Shown here piece by piece: positions 39,164 to 51,363 of a stretch of 64,000 bases of DNA; within the stretch, counting starts at the first letter, position 1; every line of letters starts with the position of its first letter. The notes beneath the pieces are model-generated. The model was not told the DNA's origin, searched no databases, and worked only from the letters and a program-made list of their open reading frames with translations. Origin of the DNA: Gemmatimonadota bacterium (GTDB taxonomy: Bacteria > Gemmatimonadota > Gemmatimonadetes > Longimicrobiales > Gaopeijiaceae); NCBI GenBank assembly GCA_022826005.1, contig JAJDVT010000141.1, positions 62,001 to 126,000 on the forward strand, written 5' to 3'. Both the position numbers and the translations under genes were made by a program.

Positions 39164-39415
39164 TTGAAGCGCCTCTTCCTTCGCGGCGACCGGAGTGCGA
39201 TCCGGCCGGATCTCGTTGAGCGAGTCGAGGCGGTGCTCTCGCTCCTTGATGTCGCGAGGTCGCCGTTGGCGATGCGGCTCCCTGGGTATCGGCTGCACGC
39301 TCTAAAGGGAGACCGGAAGGGCTACTGGTCGGTCCGGGTGTCCGGTAACTGGCGGATCATCTTCCGCTTCGAAAACGAAGATGCACACGATATCGAGTTG
39401 ATCGACTACCACTAG
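39164..39415 (+). CDS. higB: HigB-type toxin (RelE superfamily)
   Basis: The mRNA-interferase toxin cleaves mRNA at the ribosome in characterised members. LHALKGDRKGYWSVRVSGNWRIIFRFE and the C-terminal DYH are diagnostic. From TTG 39164 the product has 83 residues, but homology starts nine codons earlier: the in-frame codons from 39137 read VIRSFRHRG, equivalent to the family start MIKSFKHKG, with GTC where the initiator should be and a TAG just before it. So either a TTG start gives a shortened toxin, or a non-standard codon (GTC, ATA) is used, or the start has been lost. The antitoxin follows. Confidence 0.8.
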   Translation: MKRLFLRGDRSAIRPDLVERVEAVLSLLDVARSPLAMRLPGYRLHALKGDRKGYWSVRVSGNWRIIFRFENEDAHDIELIDYH

Positions 39416-39443
39416 CGGCCACGAACCGGAAAAGGAACTAGCC

Positions 39444-39746
39444 ATGCCCATGAAGAACCCGCCACATCCCGGAAAGGTCGTCCGGCTTTCTTGCCTTGAG
39501 CCACTCGGACTCAGTGTGACGGACGGGGCGAGCGTGCTCGGAGTAAGTCGCCAGGCGCTCTCGAATCTGGTGAATGGACGCGCCCGCATCTCTACGGACA
39601 TGGCGATACGCCTGGCGAAGGCCTTCGGCTCCACCACCGAGACCTGGATTCGGCTTCAGGCCGCGTATGACGTTGCACAGGCGGCCAAGCGTGAGGGTCA
39701 GATCCGGGTAGATCGCTATCGGCCTGCCGCTGCCGCACAGGGATAG
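39444..39746 (+). CDS. higA: HigA-type antitoxin (XRE family)
   Basis: The 100-residue DNA-binding antitoxin has the N-terminal HigA block NPPHPGKVVRLSCLEPLGLSV and a helix-turn-helix with VLGVSRQALSNLVNGRARIS. It neutralises HigB and normally represses the operon. The ATG at 39444 is 28 bases after the higB stop and has GGAAAAGGAA upstream. The family's LRPEMALRLAK... block is present as TDMAIRLAKAFG. Confidence 0.92.
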   Translation: MPMKNPPHPGKVVRLSCLEPLGLSVTDGASVLGVSRQALSNLVNGRARISTDMAIRLAKAFGSTTETWIRLQAAYDVAQAAKREGQIRVDRYRPAAAAQG

Positions 39747-39821: not shown

Positions 39822-41069
39822 ATGAACAGCGCAAGAGCAACTGTGATGATTGCAACCTACGGGGTCACGGTCCTATGTACCATGTCGGTAGATCCCGCGA
39901 ACGCCCAGGAAGTGATCGAGTTGCCGGGCGAGGACCGCCGGCTGGAGGCCAGCTTCGAGGAGGTGTACCGGGTGGGCACCGCCATGACGGGCGAAGCCTG
40001 GCAGCAGTTCGGGCGGGTCAGAAGCCTGGCCTTCGATGGTGCGGGCAACCTGCACATCTTCGACGAACTGCCCCAACTGGTCTATGTCGTGGGCACCGAT
40101 GGCAGCCTGATCCGGCAACTGGGTGGGCCAGGTGACGGTCCGGGCGAGTTCTCCACCTCTGGCGCCATGGCGGTGTTTGCCGACGGACGGGTGGTGGTCG
40201 TTGACATCCTCAGGGGTTACCACGTCTTCGCCGCAGACGGAACACCCGAGCGCCTGATACGCACGGCCAACCCGACTGGCCCCACCGCGGTGGGACGTGT
40301 GGTGGCCCAGTCCGGAGCGGATGCGATCATCGGAGTGCCCACGCTGGCGACCCGGTGGGCGATCACGGGGGCATCGTACAGGGAACCCCTCAGGTTTCCC
40401 ACGTCGCACGCGTTCGAGCGCACGACCCTTTCCGGCGAGGAGTCCGACACGGATACGATCGCGGAAGCATGGCTGCCCCCGAAGGACCTCGAGGGTCTGG
40501 ACCAAACGGAACTGGTAAACGCTGCGCCAATACCCACCCACCGCCTCCCCGAATTCACGCCCGAACTCCATTGGGGAGTCCTTCCGGACGACCGTGTTGC
40601 GTTCTCGGACTCATCGACGTACACGGTGAAGGTCGCCGAGGCGGGGGCGGGGGTGGTGCGGATCCTGACACACCCGTTTCCGCCTGCGCCGGTGACAGGC
40701 CGAGTCATTCGCGCGGAGCGGGACCGGCGGCTGCGCCAACTTGAGGAAACGGCCGGGCCCGGCGAGAACCTTGACCGCCGCCGGCGAAGGATCGAAGAGC
40801 TGGAGTTCCACGCCGAACTGTCCGTCATTCGTGGCCTGGGAACGACCTGGGACGGGCAGATCTGGGTGCAGCGGCGCGGCGACGAGCCCTCCGATGACGG
40901 GCCTGTCGATGTTCTCACCGCGGACGGCGCCTACATGGGCAGCTACCCGCCGGGCGCGACCAGGATCCCGGACGCATTCGGCCCGGACGGCCTGGTGGGG
41001 TTCATCGAGTCGAACGAGTTGGGTGTGCAGACCGTGGTGGTCGGACGACTCTCGATGGGAGCACGCTGA
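39822..41069 (+). CDS. Secreted six-bladed beta-propeller protein
   Basis: The 415-residue protein has a signal peptide ending SVDPANAQ and NHL-like blades: [43 protein letters not shown] and [17 protein letters not shown]. The [10 protein letters not shown] loop is the hallmark of the 6-bladed propeller family seen in Gemmatimonadota. A charged helical segment (about 285-320, [13 protein letters not shown]) interrupts the propeller. Its role is unknown, perhaps binding at the cell surface. GGAAAAGGAAGAGAGAC precedes the ATG. Confidence 0.78.
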
Positions 41070-41241: not shown

Positions 41242-41946
41242 CTACTGAGCCCCGAACGGCTCCGGTCTGACCGGTTTCAACTCCATGACGCGCGTCCACA
41301 GGGCCGTGGCAACACAGAAGAACGATGCAACCCACGCCCAATAGCCGATGCCCATGCCCAGCGGAGGCCAAAGTTCCGCCCACCAAACGACCCATTCGAG
41401 GTTGAGCACCGCGCCTCCGCTGACCAGCCCGGCCAGCCAGCGAGTGCGCCGTCGCCGGGCGGCGCCCAGCGCCAACAGCGTGGCAAGCATCAGGAGATTG
41501 GTGAGTGAACTCAGGATTCCGGGGAGGGCCGAAACAACCGCTGCCAGTGATCCCGGGGGATCGCCTAAGGGAGGAGCGAAAATGATGTTGAACGGCATGA
41601 TCGCCGCTTCCCAGCCGAGGAACCATCCCTCCCTGAACCAACCCACCCCCACTTTCACCGGCAACACGAACGAAGCAGCGAACATCGCCCACCCAGCCAC
41701 CAGCCACCGTCGCCAGCGCGGCTTCCCCGCTCTCGCGAACTCCTTCGCCAACGCCGCCGGCTTCCCCAGCTCCCGTCGCGCGATCGCAAACGCGCGCTCC
41801 GGCGCGAGCACACGGTTGATTTCCATCTCCAGGTCAACGCGCGCGCGCAGGTGATCCTCCAGCTCATCCAGCTCACGTGGCGACAGCGACGACTGGCGCT
41901 CCCGCCGTTCCCGCCAGCGTCGGACTTCGGCCTCCAAGTCGAACAT
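41242..41946 (-). CDS. Permease-prefix membrane protein 1 (last of the array)
   Basis: This 234-residue protein is one of eight paralogues. The first 95 residues form the shared soluble 'permease prefix' domain: RRWRERRERQSSLSPRELDELEDHLRARVD-type helices, then an ERAFAIARRELGKP helix and the stretch KPRWRRWLVAGWAMFAASF entering the membrane. Four or five hydrophobic segments follow, with no ABC permease or MacB motif. In related bacteria the same prefix precedes MacB-like permeases; here it caps small membrane proteins. The ATG at 41946 has GGAGG five bases upstream. It is the distal gene of the minus-strand array; function unknown. Confidence 0.75.
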   Translation of the reverse strand: MFDLEAEVRRWRERRERQSSLSPRELDELEDHLRARVDLEMEINRVLAPERAFAIARRELGKPAALAKEFARAGKPRWRRWLVAGWAMFAASFVLPVKVGVGWFREGWFLGWEAAIMPFNIIFAPPLGDPPGSLAAVVSALPGILSSLTNLLMLATLLALGAARRRRTRWLAGLVSGGAVLNLEWVVWWAELWPPLGMGIGYWAWVASFFCVATALWTRVMELKPVRPEPFGAQ

Positions 41947-41962
41947 GTCTACCTCCGGCGGG

Positions 41963-42625
41963 CTATGCGGACACTCTCTTCGGGGTCGCAGACTCCCACT
42001 CCCGCGCGCGCAATCGCAGCCCGACTGCCGCGCACACCATGGAGCCGCCCCAGGACCAGAACGCCGATGTGAAGATGAGTTTGGGCAGCACCGTCCAGCC
42101 TTCGCTGAAAACGCCGTACCCTGCGAGTGCGCCGATCCACCCGAGGAGCAGGCCGCCCGCGCACCCGAGGAGCCAGCGCAGCCAGCGCGCGCGGGAGCAA
42201 CGCCCACCCCAGAGCGCTGACACGGTCATCAGCATCGCAAGGTGGACCGGAAGGAGAACGATAATGGCCTCCGGATCGAGGAACAGCTGATGCCCGTACA
42301 TCGTAGCTCCCCCACCGAACAGTTCTATCCGCAACATCGGCAGGAACCACGCCGCCGCGTACGCGGCCCACCCGGCCACCAGCCACCGCCGCCACTTCGG
42401 CTTGCCCACCTTCGCGAACTCCTTCGACAGTGCCGCCGCCTCGCCCAGCTCGTGCCGGGCGATCGCGAACGCCTTTTCCGGCGCCAACACTGCGTTCAGC
42501 TCCATCTCCAGATCGACCCTCGCCCTGAGATGGTCCTCCAGCTCGTCCAGCTCCCTGGGCGACAGCGACGAGGTGCACTCCTGCCGCTCCCGCCACTGCC
42601 GAACCCGTCCATCCAGATCAAACAT
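41963..42625 (-). CDS. Permease-prefix membrane protein 2
   Basis: The 220-residue paralogue has the prefix domain (WRERQECTSSLSPRELDELED up to about residue 95) and then about five hydrophobic segments, ending with an Arg-rich tail. Its ATG at 42625 overlaps the end of padR1 by eight bases, with GGGGAGG inside the repressor gene as ribosome-binding site. The same eight-base overlap occurs between padR2 and protein 6, so this junction has been copied. No function is known. Confidence 0.75.
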   Translation of the reverse strand: MFDLDGRVRQWRERQECTSSLSPRELDELEDHLRARVDLEMELNAVLAPEKAFAIARHELGEAAALSKEFAKVGKPKWRRWLVAGWAAYAAAWFLPMLRIELFGGGATMYGHQLFLDPEAIIVLLPVHLAMLMTVSALWGGRCSRARWLRWLLGCAGGLLLGWIGALAGYGVFSEGWTVLPKLIFTSAFWSWGGSMVCAAVGLRLRAREWESATPKRVSA

Positions 42626-42959
42626 GGCTTCCTCCCCATGATGCCTCGAGGGCCCCGTGAACCGTGCGCCGGTTTTCGCGATCGGCCGCCAGCTGGCGCT
42701 TTCCGCGACTCGTCAACCTGTAGTACTTCCGACGACGCCCCTCTTCGGTGAGTTGCCAGCGGCCCGAGATCACCCCGTCGCGCTCCAGCCGGTGCAGGAC
42801 CGGGTAGAGCATTCCGTCCGACCACTCCAGCTTGCCGCCCGACAGCAGCTTGACCTGCTTGAGGATCTCGTAGCCGTAGCTCTCTCCCCCCGCCAGGATG
42901 GAAAGCACCATGGGGCGCGACGATTCGGCCACGAGCTCCCTGGATACCTGTTTCCTCAT
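42618..42959 (-). CDS. PadR-family repressor 1
   Basis: The 113-residue winged-helix regulator has SRPMVLSILAGGESYGYEIL, the DNA-recognition part GMLYPVLHRLERDGVI and the wing EGRRRKYYRLT. It is about 85% identical to the PadR at 45834 (17 differences in 113 positions by direct count). PadR proteins repress transport genes and often their own operon. The ATG at 42959 (GGAG eight bases upstream) overlaps the stop of membrane protein 3 by four bases, and the 3' end overlaps protein 2 by eight. The likely target is the TACCTTG-N5-CAAGGTA palindrome at 47606 and 51345. Confidence 0.9.
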   Translation of the reverse strand: MRKQVSRELVAESSRPMVLSILAGGESYGYEILKQVKLLSGGKLEWSDGMLYPVLHRLERDGVISGRWQLTEEGRRRKYYRLTSRGKRQLAADRENRRTVHGALEASWGGSHV

Positions 42960-43720
42960 TGCAGCGCTCCTATGTCCGGTGCGATCGCCGGAGACCTCCG
43001 GTTGCATCGGGCACGGCGCCCCGGGCGCGAGCCGCTGGCGAATCCGTGCGTAGCTCTCACCGGTGTCGGTGCTCCGTCCTTCGCACGCATCCGTAGCGCG
43101 GCCGCCACGCAGATATACGAGGCGGTCCAGGTCCAGAAGCCCACCGTGAGCAGTGGAGGGAGCAACAAACTCGTTTCCCCGTTCAGTATCGAGCTAAAGA
43201 CCAGGCCTCCGACCATCGAAGCGATCCAGAACGCGCCCACGGCTCCCACCGATCCCCAAAACCAGCGTTTGGCGGAGAGGCGGGCGCGCCAGAGGACCGG
43301 TACAGTCACAAGCATGGCCAGGTTGGAGAAGAAGAGTAGTGTACCGGTCACGCCGCCGGTGGCGCCTCGCAGCACGCCGACTCGGGTCAGGACCTCGTAC
43401 CCCTGGATGGTACCGGTACCGTAAAGCGGTGATTCGATAACCGGCAGAAACCAGGACGCACCGTACATCGCCCGGCCAGTAAGGAGCCACCGCCGCCAGC
43501 GCGGCCTCCCGGCCTTCGCGAACTCCTTCGACAGCGCCACGGGCTCGCCCAGATTGCGCCGCGCGATCGTGAACGCCTGCTCCGGCGCCCGCACCGCGTT
43601 CAGTCCCATCTCCAGGTCGACCCGCGCCCGAAGGTGGTCCTCCAGCTCGTGGGGCGACAGCGACGTCTCCCGCCCCTGCTGCTCCCGCCACCGCCGGACT
43701 TGCGCATCCAGATCGAACAT
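42956..43720 (-). CDS. Permease-prefix membrane protein 3
   Basis: This 254-residue paralogue has a prefix domain slightly shortened at SLSPHELEDHLRARVD (the DELED repeat is trimmed by three residues), then about five hydrophobic segments. A basic C-terminal extension of about 30 residues (GFASGSRPGRRARCN) is absent from the other paralogues. It ends in an ATGA overlap with padR1. The extension may be former intergenic sequence recruited to reach the overlap. Confidence 0.72.
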   Translation of the reverse strand: MFDLDAQVRRWREQQGRETSLSPHELEDHLRARVDLEMGLNAVRAPEQAFTIARRNLGEPVALSKEFAKAGRPRWRRWLLTGRAMYGASWFLPVIESPLYGTGTIQGYEVLTRVGVLRGATGGVTGTLLFFSNLAMLVTVPVLWRARLSAKRWFWGSVGAVGAFWIASMVGGLVFSSILNGETSLLLPPLLTVGFWTWTASYICVAAALRMRAKDGAPTPVRATHGFASGSRPGRRARCNRRSPAIAPDIGALQ

Positions 43721-43735
43721 TCCTCGCTCCCTCTG

Positions 43736-44416
43736 TCAGGCGCCCGTGGGTACATGGCCGACTCCCTCTTCGGCCTTCGCCGGTGCGTATTCCTGCGCGC
43801 GGAGCCGAAGCGCGTTCGCCACGCATAAGTACGAGGCGCTCCAGGTCCAACAACCTGCGAAGAACCGTTGCTGCCACAGGTCGGTGAGCCCGAAGCTGAC
43901 CAGTCGATAGGCTATCGCCGACAGAAGGACGCCAAGGGAACATGTGCCCACGATTCCCAGCACTCGTCGCAGCCATCGATTACACGAAAGACGCGCGCCC
44001 CAGAGGGCCGCGACCGTGATGACCATGGGGACGTTGAACATTGTCAGCGACCACTCTTCCCCGATGTCCAGAATCATGTCACGGAAGACCTCGTACCCGT
44101 AGACGGTGCCACCGAAAGCAGTCGCAATCGGCAGAAACACGGTCCCCACATACATTGCCCACCCCGCGACCAGCCACCGCCGCCAGCGTGGCTTGCCCGC
44201 CTTCGCGAACTCCTGGGACAGCACGACCGGCTTACCCAACTCGCGCCGCGCAGTCGCGAACGCCTGGGCAGGCGCCAGCGTCCCATTGAACTCCAGCTCG
44301 AGATCGACCCTCGCCCTGAGATGGTCCTCCAACTCGTCCAGCTCGCGCGGCGACAGCGAGGACCTGCGTTCCTGGCGCTTCCGCCAGTACCTCACTTCCG
44401 CATCCAGGTCAAACAC
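43736..44416 (-). CDS. Permease-prefix membrane protein 4
   Basis: The 226-residue paralogue starts at GTG 44416 (GGAGGAATC just upstream), giving the same FDLDAEVRYWRKRQERRSS start as its relatives. The prefix domain ends near residue 95 in KPRWRRWLVAGWAMYVGTV; about five hydrophobic segments follow, with WTWSASYLCVANALRLRAQE as the shared last helix. The spacing to neighbours (15 and 32 bases) supports cotranscription. Function unknown. Confidence 0.75.
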   Translation of the reverse strand: MFDLDAEVRYWRKRQERRSSLSPRELDELEDHLRARVDLELEFNGTLAPAQAFATARRELGKPVVLSQEFAKAGKPRWRRWLVAGWAMYVGTVFLPIATAFGGTVYGYEVFRDMILDIGEEWSLTMFNVPMVITVAALWGARLSCNRWLRRVLGIVGTCSLGVLLSAIAYRLVSFGLTDLWQQRFFAGCWTWSASYLCVANALRLRAQEYAPAKAEEGVGHVPTGA

Positions 44417-44448
44417 GATTCCTCCTCCAGTGCACGCTCTCCACCATG

Positions 44449-45111
44449 CTACGCGGGCGCCTTGTTTGCCCTTGCCGACGCCCACGCCTTCGCCCGCAAC
44501 CGCAGACCCCTCGCCACGCACAGGAACGAGGCGGTCCAGGCCCAGAATCCCATGCGGAACGGGGGAGGGAGCAGCCAGGCGATGCTGCCGTTCTCGATCG
44601 AGCCGTAGATCATGACTCCGACCACCGTACCGATCGCGGACACACCCGCGACTCCGACCAACCGCCGAAACCAGCGATTGCAGGAGATACGGGCACCCCA
44701 TAGCACAGGCACCGTCATCAGCATTGGCAGGTTCACGACGAGCACGAGTGCCGAACCGGGGTCGGCGATGTCCCTGAGCAGATCGTAGCCGAACAACATC
44801 CCGAGCCACCCCATATCGAGGATCGGCAGAAACCACGAAGCCGCGTACGTTGCCCACCCCGCCACCAGCCACCTCCGCCACCGAGGCCTGCCCGCCTTCG
44901 CGAACTCCTTCGACAGCGCCGTCGCCTCTCCCAGCTCGTGCCGCGCAATCGCGAAAGCCCGCTCCGGCGCCAGCACCGCACTCAGCTCCAACTCAAGGTC
45001 GACCCTCGCCCGCAGGTGGTCTTCGAGCTCATCCAGTTCGCGCGGCGACAGCGAAGAATTGCGTTCCTGTCGCTCCCGCCACTGCACGACCGCTTCCCCC
45101 AACTTGAACAT
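44449..45111 (-). CDS. Permease-prefix membrane protein 5
   Basis: The 220-residue paralogue has a divergent first ten residues (MFKLGEAVVQWRERQERNSS) but an otherwise typical prefix domain and membrane part, ending WTASFLCVARGLRLRAKAW. The ATG at 45111 is chosen over an adjacent upstream GTG because of GGAGG five bases before it. The gap of ten bases to the preceding gene's stop indicates a common transcript. Confidence 0.75.
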   Translation of the reverse strand: MFKLGEAVVQWRERQERNSSLSPRELDELEDHLRARVDLELELSAVLAPERAFAIARHELGEATALSKEFAKAGRPRWRRWLVAGWATYAASWFLPILDMGWLGMLFGYDLLRDIADPGSALVLVVNLPMLMTVPVLWGARISCNRWFRRLVGVAGVSAIGTVVGVMIYGSIENGSIAWLLPPPFRMGFWAWTASFLCVARGLRLRAKAWASARANKAPA

Positions 45112-45121
45112 CACGACCTCC

Positions 45122-45841
45122 TTACTCGGGTGAAACGGATTGCTTCGCCCTCACCGACGCCCCGTCGTGGTCACGGAGCCAGAGCGCTGCTGCGGCACAC
45201 ACGAACGACAGCGACCATGCCCAGTAGCCGATTCCGAGGTGTTGGGCGAACCCAGGCTCGCCGTTCACCGCAACGTGGACCGGCGGCGCAACGAAGCCGA
45301 GCCACAACGTGCCCAGGCCGGCGACCGAGAGGGCGTACCGCATCACCGTCCATGCCCACCTCTCGACGTTCCGCAAAGCGGGAATCGACGTCACGAGCAT
45401 TGCAAGACAAGGAGTGAGCGCTGCCAACACGCCGAGTTTCACGAAAAGCTTGCCGTCGCCGACCAGCGACTCCCCGAACACCTCGAATCCGTAATAAGGC
45501 TGGATTCCGAGGGGCCGAGAGAGGCTCAGTCCGGCCTCCGGGACATGAAAGACTGGCAACAGGAACGACACCCCGAACATCGCCCACCCCGCAATCAGCA
45601 GCTTCCGCCACCGGGGCGTGCCCGCCCTCGCGAATTCCCTGGACAGCGCGGCCGACTCCCCGAGCCCCTTACACGCGAGCGCGAAGGCCCGGCGGCGGCT
45701 TGGCACCGCCATCAGCTCCATCTCCAGATTCACGCGTGCGCGCAGATGATCTTCCAGCTCGTCCAGCTCGGCCGCCGCAAGCGACGATGTGCGCTCCTGG
45801 CGCTCCCGCCAGCGCCCTACTTCGCGATCCAGATCAAACAT
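45122..45841 (-). CDS. Permease-prefix membrane protein 6
   Basis: The 239-residue paralogue has a more diverged prefix (SSLAAAELDELEDHLRARVN, then RRRAFALACKGLGES). The membrane part has about five hydrophobic segments and ends YWAWSLSFVCAAAALWLRD. Its ATG overlaps the 3' end of padR2 by eight bases, exactly as protein 2 overlaps padR1. Confidence 0.75.
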   Translation of the reverse strand: MFDLDREVGRWRERQERTSSLAAAELDELEDHLRARVNLEMELMAVPSRRRAFALACKGLGESAALSREFARAGTPRWRKLLIAGWAMFGVSFLLPVFHVPEAGLSLSRPLGIQPYYGFEVFGESLVGDGKLFVKLGVLAALTPCLAMLVTSIPALRNVERWAWTVMRYALSVAGLGTLWLGFVAPPVHVAVNGEPGFAQHLGIGYWAWSLSFVCAAAALWLRDHDGASVRAKQSVSPE

Positions 45842-46175
45842 TGCTCCCTCCCCATGACAGCTCGAGGGCTCCGTGGACCGTCCGCCAGGCCTCGCGGTCG
45901 GTAGCCAGCTGGCGCTTGCCGCGCCTGGTCAGACTGTAGTACTTGCGACGCCGTCCCTCATCGGTCAGCTCCCAGCGGCCGGCGATCATCCCGTCCCGCT
46001 CCAGACGGTGCAGGACGGGATACAGCATGCCGTCGGACCACTCCAGCTCGCCGCCGGAGAGCAGCTTGACCTGCTTCAGGATCTCGTAGCCGTAGCTCTC
46101 GCCGCCTGCGAGGATGGATAGGACCATCGGGCGCGACGACGCGGCGACGAGTTCCTTGGAAAACCGTTTCTTCAT
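45834..46175 (-). CDS. PadR-family repressor 2
   Basis: This 113-residue winged-helix regulator is nearly the twin of PadR 1: the block RPMVLSILAGGESYGYEILK and the following helix to YPVLHRLERDG are identical apart from one Lys-to-Glu change. Differences cluster at the N-terminus and near the C-terminus. The start overlaps the stop of membrane protein 7 (ATGA), and the end overlaps protein 6 by eight bases. The two repressors probably share operators. Keeping two near-identical copies in one operon suggests a recent segmental duplication or dosage need. Confidence 0.9.
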   Translation of the reverse strand: MKKRFSKELVAASSRPMVLSILAGGESYGYEILKQVKLLSGGELEWSDGMLYPVLHRLERDGMIAGRWELTDEGRRRKYYSLTRRGKRQLATDREAWRTVHGALELSWGGSNV

Positions 46176-46858
46176 TCGAAGACTCCCTGGCCCGATGTGT
46201 GGGCCGGTGTTGGCGGCCTGGCCGGGGCCCGCTCACGTGCGCGCATCCACAGAGCGGAGCCGATGCAGGCAAATGACGCTATCCAGACCCAGTAGCCGAT
46301 GCCGGGACCGATCTGTTGCGCGGCCCAATGGAGGTTGAGCAGCGTTGCTCCCATGAGGCTTGGCGCGAGCCAGGTGGATTCCGGAGGCCGGGAGCCCTTC
46401 AGCTTCAGGAATGTTGCCAGGACCAGGGCATTGGACAGCCCGCTGAGTACCCGCAGCAGCGATAGCCAGAAGGCACCATCCCCTGCCGCAAGCAGCGCTC
46501 CGATGGGGGCCTGCCATCCCCAAAGGAAATCCTGTCCGGAACCCGTGCCCCAACGGAAGTTGTGGGCGGCCGGAAGAAAGAACGAAACCGCGTACATCGC
46601 CCAGCCGGCCACCAGCAGCTTGCGCCAGCGCGGGCTCCCCGACTTCGCGAACTCGCTGGATAGCGCCGCCGACTGGCCGAGTTCCTTCCGCGCGGTCTTG
46701 AACGCCTGCTGTGGGGCCAGCGTCGCATCCGTCTCCAGCAGGAGGTCGACCCGGGCACGCAGATGGTCCTCCAGCTCGTCGAGCTCGCGCGGCGAGAGGG
46801 AGGAGGTGTGCTCCTGGCGCTCCCGCCACCGACGGAGTTCGGCATCGAGATCAAACAC
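46172..46858 (-). CDS. Permease-prefix membrane protein 7
   Basis: This 228-residue paralogue starts at GTG 46858, which overlaps the stop of the previous gene by eight bases and gives the usual FDLDAELRRWRERQEHTSS start. The prefix domain has RVDLLLETDATLAPQQAFKTARKELGQS; about five hydrophobic segments follow, including IGYWVWIASFACIGSALWMRA. The stop overlaps padR2 (ATGA). Confidence 0.75.
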   Translation of the reverse strand: MFDLDAELRRWRERQEHTSSLSPRELDELEDHLRARVDLLLETDATLAPQQAFKTARKELGQSAALSSEFAKSGSPRWRKLLVAGWAMYAVSFFLPAAHNFRWGTGSGQDFLWGWQAPIGALLAAGDGAFWLSLLRVLSGLSNALVLATFLKLKGSRPPESTWLAPSLMGATLLNLHWAAQQIGPGIGYWVWIASFACIGSALWMRARERAPARPPTPAHTSGQGVFE

Positions 46859-47576
46859 GGCTGTTCTCCAGTGCTCCGGTTCGAGCCGCGCCCTTGAGTA
46901 CCGCGGAAGCCCATCCGCGGGCGCGGAGGTGAAGGGCGGCGGCCACGCCGATGAACGAGGCGGCCCATGTCCAGTAGCCGGGGCCGAAGAGCGCGCGGAT
47001 GTAGGGACTCACCATCTGGGCCGAGTGGTCGAGGCTGAGGATGATGCCGACGCCGAGTGCGCCAGCCCCCGCGAGTCCGAGGAATCGTCGCAACCAGCGT
47101 CCGCCCGCCGGCTTTCGACGGCTGAGCACCGGAATCGTCATCAGCATGGCAAGGTTGGGAAGGGCGGCCAGCACCAGCGAGGGCGTCCCGAGACATCTCA
47201 GGAACACCTCGAAACCGTCGGCCCGTCCATAGGCCCGGTACTCGGGGAGCAACTCGAGCCCGGTCACGGGAAGGACGAACGAGGCCGCAAACATCGCCCA
47301 GCCGGCCACGAACAGCCCCTTCCACCGTGGCTTGCCCGCCCTGGTGAACTCCTGCGACAGCGCGGAGCCCGTCCCCATATCATGGCTGGCCATGTGGAAA
47401 GCCCGTGCGGGTGTGATCGCCGCATTCAGCTCCATCTCGAGATTGACCCGAGCCCTCATGTGGTCCTCCAGCTCGTCCAGCTCGCGCGGAGACAGCGAGG
47501 ATGTGCGCTGCTGGCGTGCCCGCCACCGGCCGACCTGGGCGTCGAGATCGAAGTCGCTGCTCGCTGATTCCCTCAT
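46851..47576 (-). CDS. Permease-prefix membrane protein 8 (first of the array)
   Basis: The 241-residue paralogue is promoter-proximal. The ATG at 47576 has AAGGGGG about six bases upstream; an ATG further up would read through the operator. The prefix domain (RWRARQQRTSSLSPRELDELED, then TPARAFHMASHDMG) is followed by about five hydrophobic segments ending GYWTWAASFIGVAAALHLRA. A TACCTTG-N5-CAAGGTA palindrome lies 30-48 bases upstream, so repression by the PadR proteins of the same operon is likely. Confidence 0.76.
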   Translation of the reverse strand: MRESASSDFDLDAQVGRWRARQQRTSSLSPRELDELEDHMRARVNLEMELNAAITPARAFHMASHDMGTGSALSQEFTRAGKPRWKGLFVAGWAMFAASFVLPVTGLELLPEYRAYGRADGFEVFLRCLGTPSLVLAALPNLAMLMTIPVLSRRKPAGGRWLRRFLGLAGAGALGVGIILSLDHSAQMVSPYIRALFGPGYWTWAASFIGVAAALHLRARGWASAVLKGAARTGALENSRV

Positions 47577-47605
47577 GACGGCCCCCTTTACCATGAACTG
47601 CAATG

Positions 47606-47624
47606 TACCTTGCACTTCAAGGTA
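47606..47624. promoter_or_regulatory. PadR-type operator upstream of the membrane-protein array
   Basis: TACCTTG-CACTT-CAAGGTA is a perfect inverted repeat with 7-bp arms and a 5-base spacer, 30 bases before the first gene of the array, in a locally AT-rich stretch suited to a promoter. The same palindrome with one arm mismatch lies before the ABC/M1 fusion gene. Confidence 0.65.
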
Positions 47625-51344: not shown

Positions 51345-51363
51345 TACCTTGCCGTACAAGGTG
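51345..51363. promoter_or_regulatory. PadR-type operator upstream of the ABC/M1 fusion
   Basis: TACCTTG-CCGTA-CAAGGTG matches the array operator (47606) in architecture and 13 of 14 arm bases. It lies 82 bases before the GTG of the fusion gene. On the minus strand TTGTAC inside it could serve as a -35 with CATAGT as -10, so binding would block RNA polymerase. Confidence 0.6.

Follow-up and report, generated by a model that had tools for sequence, protein, structure and literature searches.

The closest described system is the HAAS-PadR pair, in which the HAAS (helix-turn-helix (HTH)-associated alpha-helical signalling) domain, consisting of three helices with an invariant GxP motif, is always found beside a stand-alone PadR protein (Ravi et al. 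2024, PMC11237479). The HAAS domain is located N-terminally to multi-transmembrane (multi-TM) regions, including unnamed domains with four transmembrane helices (4TM), and these pairs are proposed to be membrane-signalling modules; based for the most part on domain architectures and gene neighbourhoods, the dyad was suggested in 2024 to offer an alternative to two-component systems (PMC11237479). In Listeria, the PadR protein LltR autorepresses the lltR-lmo0600(DUF1700)-lmo0601 operon approximately 100-150 fold (PMC6624303). Here, a gene array is described that is located within a 64-kb stretch (referred to as the window) of the 4.85-Mb assembly of a Gemmatimonadota bacterium, where one minus-strand run, from position 47576 to 41242, encodes eight paralogous membrane proteins (P1-P8) and two PadR proteins (R1 and R2). 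By analogy with the described systems, this array may well be an expanded, autorepressed, multi-sensor membrane-signalling operon of the HAAS-PadR type, and this is the reading that we, on balance, favour.

The gene order is P1-P2-R1-P3-P4-P5-P6-R2-P7-P8, and all ten genes are uninterrupted open reading frames (ORFs) (Table 1). Short overlaps of a few bases are present at the junctions P1/P2, P2/R1, R1/P3, P6/R2 and R2/P7, and this close packing is as expected for one transcription unit. The eight P proteins can be aligned from end to end, with 38 invariant columns; the mean identity between the paralogs is 68% over the first 95 residues and 36% beyond, which is also far above chance. No ninth copy is found when searching the whole genome. 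R1 and R2 are clearly PadR-family proteins, as judged from profile matches: both match PF03551 with E-values of approximately 1e-24, they score 92.9 and 88.2 bits with padR_acidobact (TIGR03433), which is below the curated cut-off of 101.8 bits, and the sequence of R1 matches many solved PadR-family regulators in the PDB (best E-value 1.1e-19). These data are in agreement with the sequence-only reading of this DNA, which had described eight paralogs and twin PadR repressors in one operon, in the order given here and without an ATPase; the ORFs and the alignment confirm the arrangement, the PF03551 membership and the 85% identity of R1 and R2 confirm the twin repressors, and no ATPase is present in the operon. 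Scans for sigma-70 promoters and terminators between positions 41000 and 51800 give no more matches than expected from shuffled sequence, the Rfam and transfer RNA scans of the window give no match, and the PHROGs scan of the eight P proteins gives no match at an E-value of 0.01.

The shape of the P proteins is best seen in the AlphaFold2 model of P7, calculated with an alignment of 73 relatives, which has a mean predicted local distance difference test (pLDDT) score of 87.8. In this model, three soluble helices (residues 4-18, 23-43 and 49-73) are followed by the GxP motif (residues 74-76) and by four TM helices (residues 77-94, 118-138, 146-175 and 187-211). The soluble prefix is therefore predicted to span about 76 residues and three helices, whereas the conserved block of 95 residues takes in the first TM helix as well. 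The sequence-only reading, which had assigned about 95 residues to the prefix and five helices to the membrane part, needs to be adjusted on both points, although the hydropathy profile of P8 leaves room for one further (fifth) hydrophobic segment in that protein. Kinship of the membrane part with the claudin/TARP-type four-helix bundles was considered and rejected, because the VIA-align Z scores of 7-8.7 are no higher than those reached by helical bundles in general. Foldseek searches with the full model and with the prefix model give no match with an E-value below 1, and PDB profile searches with the full-length and prefix alignments give chance matches only.

The comparison with the HAAS-PadR pairs shows that the hallmarks of the HAAS domain are present in the array: three consecutive helices with GxP at the end of the third one, the glycine and the proline being invariant in all eight P proteins; a position N-terminal to four TM helices; and stand-alone PadR neighbours, R1 and R2, inside the operon. 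A same-strand PadR gene is also found within 1.5 kb in 66 of the 74 assessable loci. Of the eight loci without a nearby PadR gene, four are cut short by a contig end, and in the remaining four (L046, L049, L053 and L067) the prefix match is incomplete. The prefix likely belongs to the HAAS domain family, as suggested by its three modelled helices, the GxP motif and the PadR neighbours. Unlike the described HAAS-PadR pairs, the array combines eight paralogs in tandem with two PadR genes, has no detectable similarity to the Pfam families DUF1700 and DUF1048, and lacks a PspC, Toastrack or Lia partner among its genes. The likeness to the Listeria operon is one of architecture: in both cases a PadR gene is in an operon, in Listeria an autoregulated one, with a HAAS-type multi-TM protein, but the operon of this Firmicute encodes one such membrane protein and a DUF4097 partner. 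The sequence-only reading knew of no characterised role for a stand-alone array of such proteins; the architecture of PadR, N-terminal helical domain and multi-TM region had, however, already been defined in 2024 (PMC11237479), and the Listeria PadR-DUF1700 operon had already been studied genetically (PMC6624303).

The prefix is also related to permease prefix domain 1 (NCBIfam NF038403), as a distant relative that is too diverged to be filed as a member; in Pfam, the prefix has no matching family. The best match in the window is P5 (24.7 bits); the others score between 12.6 and 21.1 bits, except for P3, which is not matched. The connection is made through intermediates, since longer relatives share the prefix motifs W-R, ELEDHLRA, G and EF; six of these relatives were scanned, and all but one (L065, L066, L074, L083 and L113 being the five) pass the curated NF038403 cut-off; the kinship to the "permease prefix" claimed earlier is thereby borne out. 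These longer relatives, mostly multi-TM proteins of about 449 residues beside a PadR gene, occur in Actinomycetota, Gammaproteobacteria, Planctomycetota and other Gemmatimonadota; those of about 449 residues lack the GxP motif. Like the P proteins, the NF038403 proteins have homologous prefix motifs and an adjacent PadR gene, but they are longer, have a different membrane part and are present as single copies in the loci seen, not as arrays. The MacB/FtsX-type permeases that have an N-terminal prefix and padR_acidobact regulators share with the array the PadR neighbour and the concept of a prefix; the array differs by having a four-helix bundle as membrane part and by lacking the FtsX/MacB core and the ATPase. 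A literature search on PadR expansion with permeases in Acidobacteria found no paper.

The palindrome ACCTTG-N5-CAAGGT is a strong candidate for the PadR operator. Its exact form occurs twice in the genome, once before P1 and once before a neighbouring gene encoding an ATP-binding cassette (ABC)-2-type permease fused to an M1 peptidase domain (Table 1). When considering the window together with 52 related loci, 17 exact sites are found within 150 bp upstream of the starts of PadR/HAAS operons (9.5 kb in total), and the remaining 841 kb of the same loci have one exact site, which is the site before the ABC-2/M1 gene of the window. Seven of 23 genomes of the genus have the exact motif, and in six of these it is at an array; the reversed pattern, used as a control over the same 23 genomes, gives six scattered matches. 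Many relatives also have the sequence ACATTG that comes after the first site, and tandem operator pairs with a spacing of 17 bp are also seen in L036, L038, L039, L043 and L045. Even when up to two mismatches are allowed, the array has no operator inside it, and it therefore looks like one transcription unit.

Members of the family are present in 20 of the 22 other genomes of the genus, with one to eight members each, and outside the genus the relatives are mostly of the longer type. The related loci are mainly from Gemmatimonadota, including Candidatus Palauibacter; the arrays have one to eight copies and one or two PadR genes, and the array of the window is the largest single array seen. In a tree of 96 sequences the window copies never cluster, and P1, P2, P3, P4, P6, P7 and P8 pair with copies of L009, L010 or L011, in which the order of the paralogs is largely kept. 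This pairing, in largely the same order, indicates that the paralogs predate these species, and recent amplification by unequal crossing-over is rejected. The ratio of nonsynonymous to synonymous substitution rates (dN/dS) between orthologs is 0.21-0.48 for the whole gene, 0.09-0.38 for the prefix and 0.25-0.57 for the membrane part, where the P4/L011 pair is left aside because it shows too few changes for an estimate. The genes are under purifying selection, with a constrained, constant prefix and a freer, variable membrane part. Family members are also seen on contigs labelled Gammaproteobacteria in sets of metagenome-assembled genomes (L020, L028, L046, L049 and L053), which could reflect transfer or misassigned bins.

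The two parts of the protein do not always share the same history. When comparing P4 with its ortholog L011_10218, third-position differences are found at 2 of 137 sites of the membrane part and at 22 of 80 sites of the prefix (p=5e-9), and the nearest match of the chimeric L011_10218 prefix is the P7 type. The reverse pattern is observed for P3 and L010_7191 (p=2.8e-10; identities in Table 1), where the switch is at the border between the prefix and the first TM helix; in four control pairs such discordance is absent or weak. In these ortholog pairs the two parts have diverged to unequal extents, which, when judged by the nucleotide comparisons, shows that prefix and membrane parts have been swapped between paralogs.

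A possible mechanism can be drawn by analogy with the HAAS-PadR pairs (PMC11237479) and the Listeria LltR operon (PMC6624303). Bound to the tandem palindromes at 47590-47623, R1 and R2 would repress the operon that encodes them and, via the site at 51346-51362, probably the ABC-2/M1 gene as well. In each P protein, the shared cytoplasmic three-helix domain would be anchored by a four-helix membrane bundle particular to that protein. If such a bundle is perturbed by an antimicrobial compound, a lipid or envelope stress, its HAAS-like domain may engage PadR, and repression would be relieved; more P proteins would then be made, acting both as sensors and as a membrane-protective output. Eight bundles on one constant domain would allow one regulator to read several signals. 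It is conceivable, although we hold it to be rather unlikely, that the constant domain, besides docking on the twin PadR proteins, provides the homology for swapping bundles between copies and species, so that the lineage keeps altering what the membrane alarm recognises. Several observations weigh against this assignment to the HAAS-PadR type. All eight P proteins stay below the NF038403 cut-off of 30 bits; the Pfam HAAS, DUF1700 and DUF1048 profiles give no match among the 73 members at an E-value of 0.01; and the fold searches with the prefix give no clear match to a known HAAS structure (DUF1700, DUF1129 or DUF1048; PDB entry 2O3L), which for such a short helical domain is no exclusion. 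In addition, the operons of some loci have prefix-less 4TM copies, meaning that the membrane part can act without the prefix, and the loci come from related species, such that the counts across loci are not independent.

The main rival explanation is that the PadR proteins, like LmrR and LadR, sense a soluble compound themselves, and that the P proteins are output only, being small membrane-protective or immunity-like proteins whose prefix serves for oligomerisation or anchoring and not as a relay to PadR. LmrR-type PadR members bind drugs directly, and R1 resembles by sequence many solved PadR-family regulators. The prefix-less copies would fit such a role, an array of diversified small membrane proteins resembles a set of protective factors, and the membrane protein of the Listeria PadR-DUF1700 operon is an effector, whose overproduction impairs growth in the cold (PMC6624303). 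The prefix, however, is the most conserved part of the P proteins, and the few PadR-less loci have incomplete prefixes, suggesting that prefix and PadR are functionally linked; we therefore give this explanation a low, but not negligible, probability. It is less probable still that the P proteins function in export or membrane remodelling, as regulatory or structural subunits of the ABC-2/M1 permease with an ATPase from elsewhere, for example from the loci on contig C137. The ABC-2/M1 gene is adjacent and is preceded by the only other exact operator copy of the genome, and its two paralogs elsewhere each have an ABC ATPase gene ahead; nevertheless, no related gene is found in the DNA covered at the 52 other related loci, such that an array needs no such neighbour, and the Pfam scans, also when including the 73 members, find no convincing transporter profile for the P proteins. 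The earlier suggestion of an undescribed membrane stress or export system is therefore only partly retained: a membrane-signalling role had already been proposed for proteins of this kind (PMC11237479), and an export function is held to be improbable.

The array could also consist of decaying remnants, that is, of truncated ABC permeases multiplied by unequal crossing-over and now without function. Decay is seen in the family: in L011, P1 is gone, P2 is without its prefix and P3 has an internal deletion, broken or partly deleted copies are also present in L030 (a stop codon) and L039, and the copy number across the genus varies from 0 to 8. Yet the eight window copies are all intact, they are old paralogs whose orthologs in L009 and L010 occupy matching positions with the order mostly kept, the operator is conserved, and the dN/dS values are well below 1. 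The modelled membrane part is a complete four-helix bundle, and neither the P proteins nor the 73 relatives have a Pfam or NCBIfam match to the FtsX or MacB periplasmic core domain. The window and the 52 related loci have 96 full-length and 27 partial matches. Truncated permeases with many inactivating changes, which the sequence-only reading had named as the outcome that would speak against it, are thus not what is seen overall, since most copies are intact and seven of the eight have an ortholog; decay is a very improbable explanation of the array. The favoured assignment, an expanded operon of the HAAS-PadR type, assembles parts that belong to an already proposed kind; the array of eight, the conserved operator and the domain swapping are the new elements. 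The array offers the HAAS-PadR dyad a testable operator, eight natural variable membrane parts on a constant domain and natural chimeras that separate both, and, if the assignment is true, it would be a simple case of bacteria widening their membrane sensing without multiplying regulators.

Table 1. Positions of the array genes, predicted operators and associated features (window coordinates unless a locus is named).
Feature	Position	Strand	Basis or remark
P1, HAAS-like prefix + 4TM paralog 1	46851..47576	-	ORF and alignment; ortholog L009_1494
P2, paralog 2, GTG start	46172..46858	-	ORF and alignment; orthologs L009_2200, L010_6494
R1, PadR-family repressor, 113 residues	45834..46175	-	PF03551 84.6 bits (cut-off 27 bits); PDB PadR chains
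P3, paralog 3, start overlaps R1 end	45122..45841	-	ORF and alignment; prefix 91%, TM part 48% nucleotide identity with L010_7191
P4, paralog 4	44449..45111	-	ORF and alignment; ortholog L011_10218, chimeric in prefix
P5, paralog 5, GTG start	43736..44416	-	ORF and alignment; ortholog not found in 96-sequence tree
P6, paralog 6, end overlaps R2 start	42956..43720	-	ORF and alignment; orthologs L009_3334, L010_8919
R2, PadR-family repressor, 113 residues	42618..42959	-	PF03551 85.7 bits; 85% identity to R1
P7, paralog 7, start overlaps R2 end	41963..42625	-	ORF and alignment, AlphaFold2 model m31d5bd6b60e0; orthologs L009_4414, L010_10001
P8, paralog 8	41242..41946	-	ORF and alignment; orthologs L009_5090, L010_10681, L011_11603
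Predicted PadR operator ACCTTG-N5-CAAGGT	47607..47623	.	exact palindrome, 30 bp upstream of P1 start codon
Degenerate second operator unit, 2 mismatches	47590..47606	.	adjoins the first unit, giving a tandem 17-bp pair
Second exact operator palindrome	51346..51362	.	about 80 bp upstream of ABC-2 permease/M1-peptidase gene
ABC-2-type permease fused to M1 peptidase domain, 1191 residues	47688..51263	-	PF12698 and PF01433; directly upstream of array
Prefix-less four-helix paralog	L036 10615-11070; L040 10691-11077; L043 10689-11075; L045 3685-4062; L039 11191-11646		

The ABC-2/M1 gene is, through the common predicted operator motif, the sole transport-like gene tied to the array. A motif scan finds no ABC-ATPase-like ORF in the window, so that the gene is an orphan there; its two paralogs, which are 59-60% identical to it, are located on contig C137 of the same genome (G000; locus L134). 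No such gene was found next to the arrays in other species, so that this one seems to have been recruited locally into the PadR regulon.

The conserved prefix-less four-helix paralog listed in Table 1 is located at the end of the PadR-HAAS-4TM operons of five loci. On the other side of the array, a HigBA-type toxin-antitoxin pair is present just downstream (39164-39746, plus strand), with a PF05015 HigB-like toxin (E-value 5e-16) and an HTH_3 antitoxin. It is followed by the gene of a secreted, six-bladed beta-propeller-like protein (39822-41069, plus strand), which is convergent with the array. Beta-propeller genes were considered as a third component and set aside, because the genome has approximately 159 propeller matches, such that adjacency alone is weak. 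Related propeller genes nevertheless adjoin many arrays, and in L036, L038, L039, L043 and L045 they are divergent from padR, with operator sites between the two genes. A single reading frame in L031 (7546-9486) joins a prefix-4TM copy, without interruption, to a lipoprotein-like beta-propeller sequence, which may be a fusion or the result of a lost stop codon.

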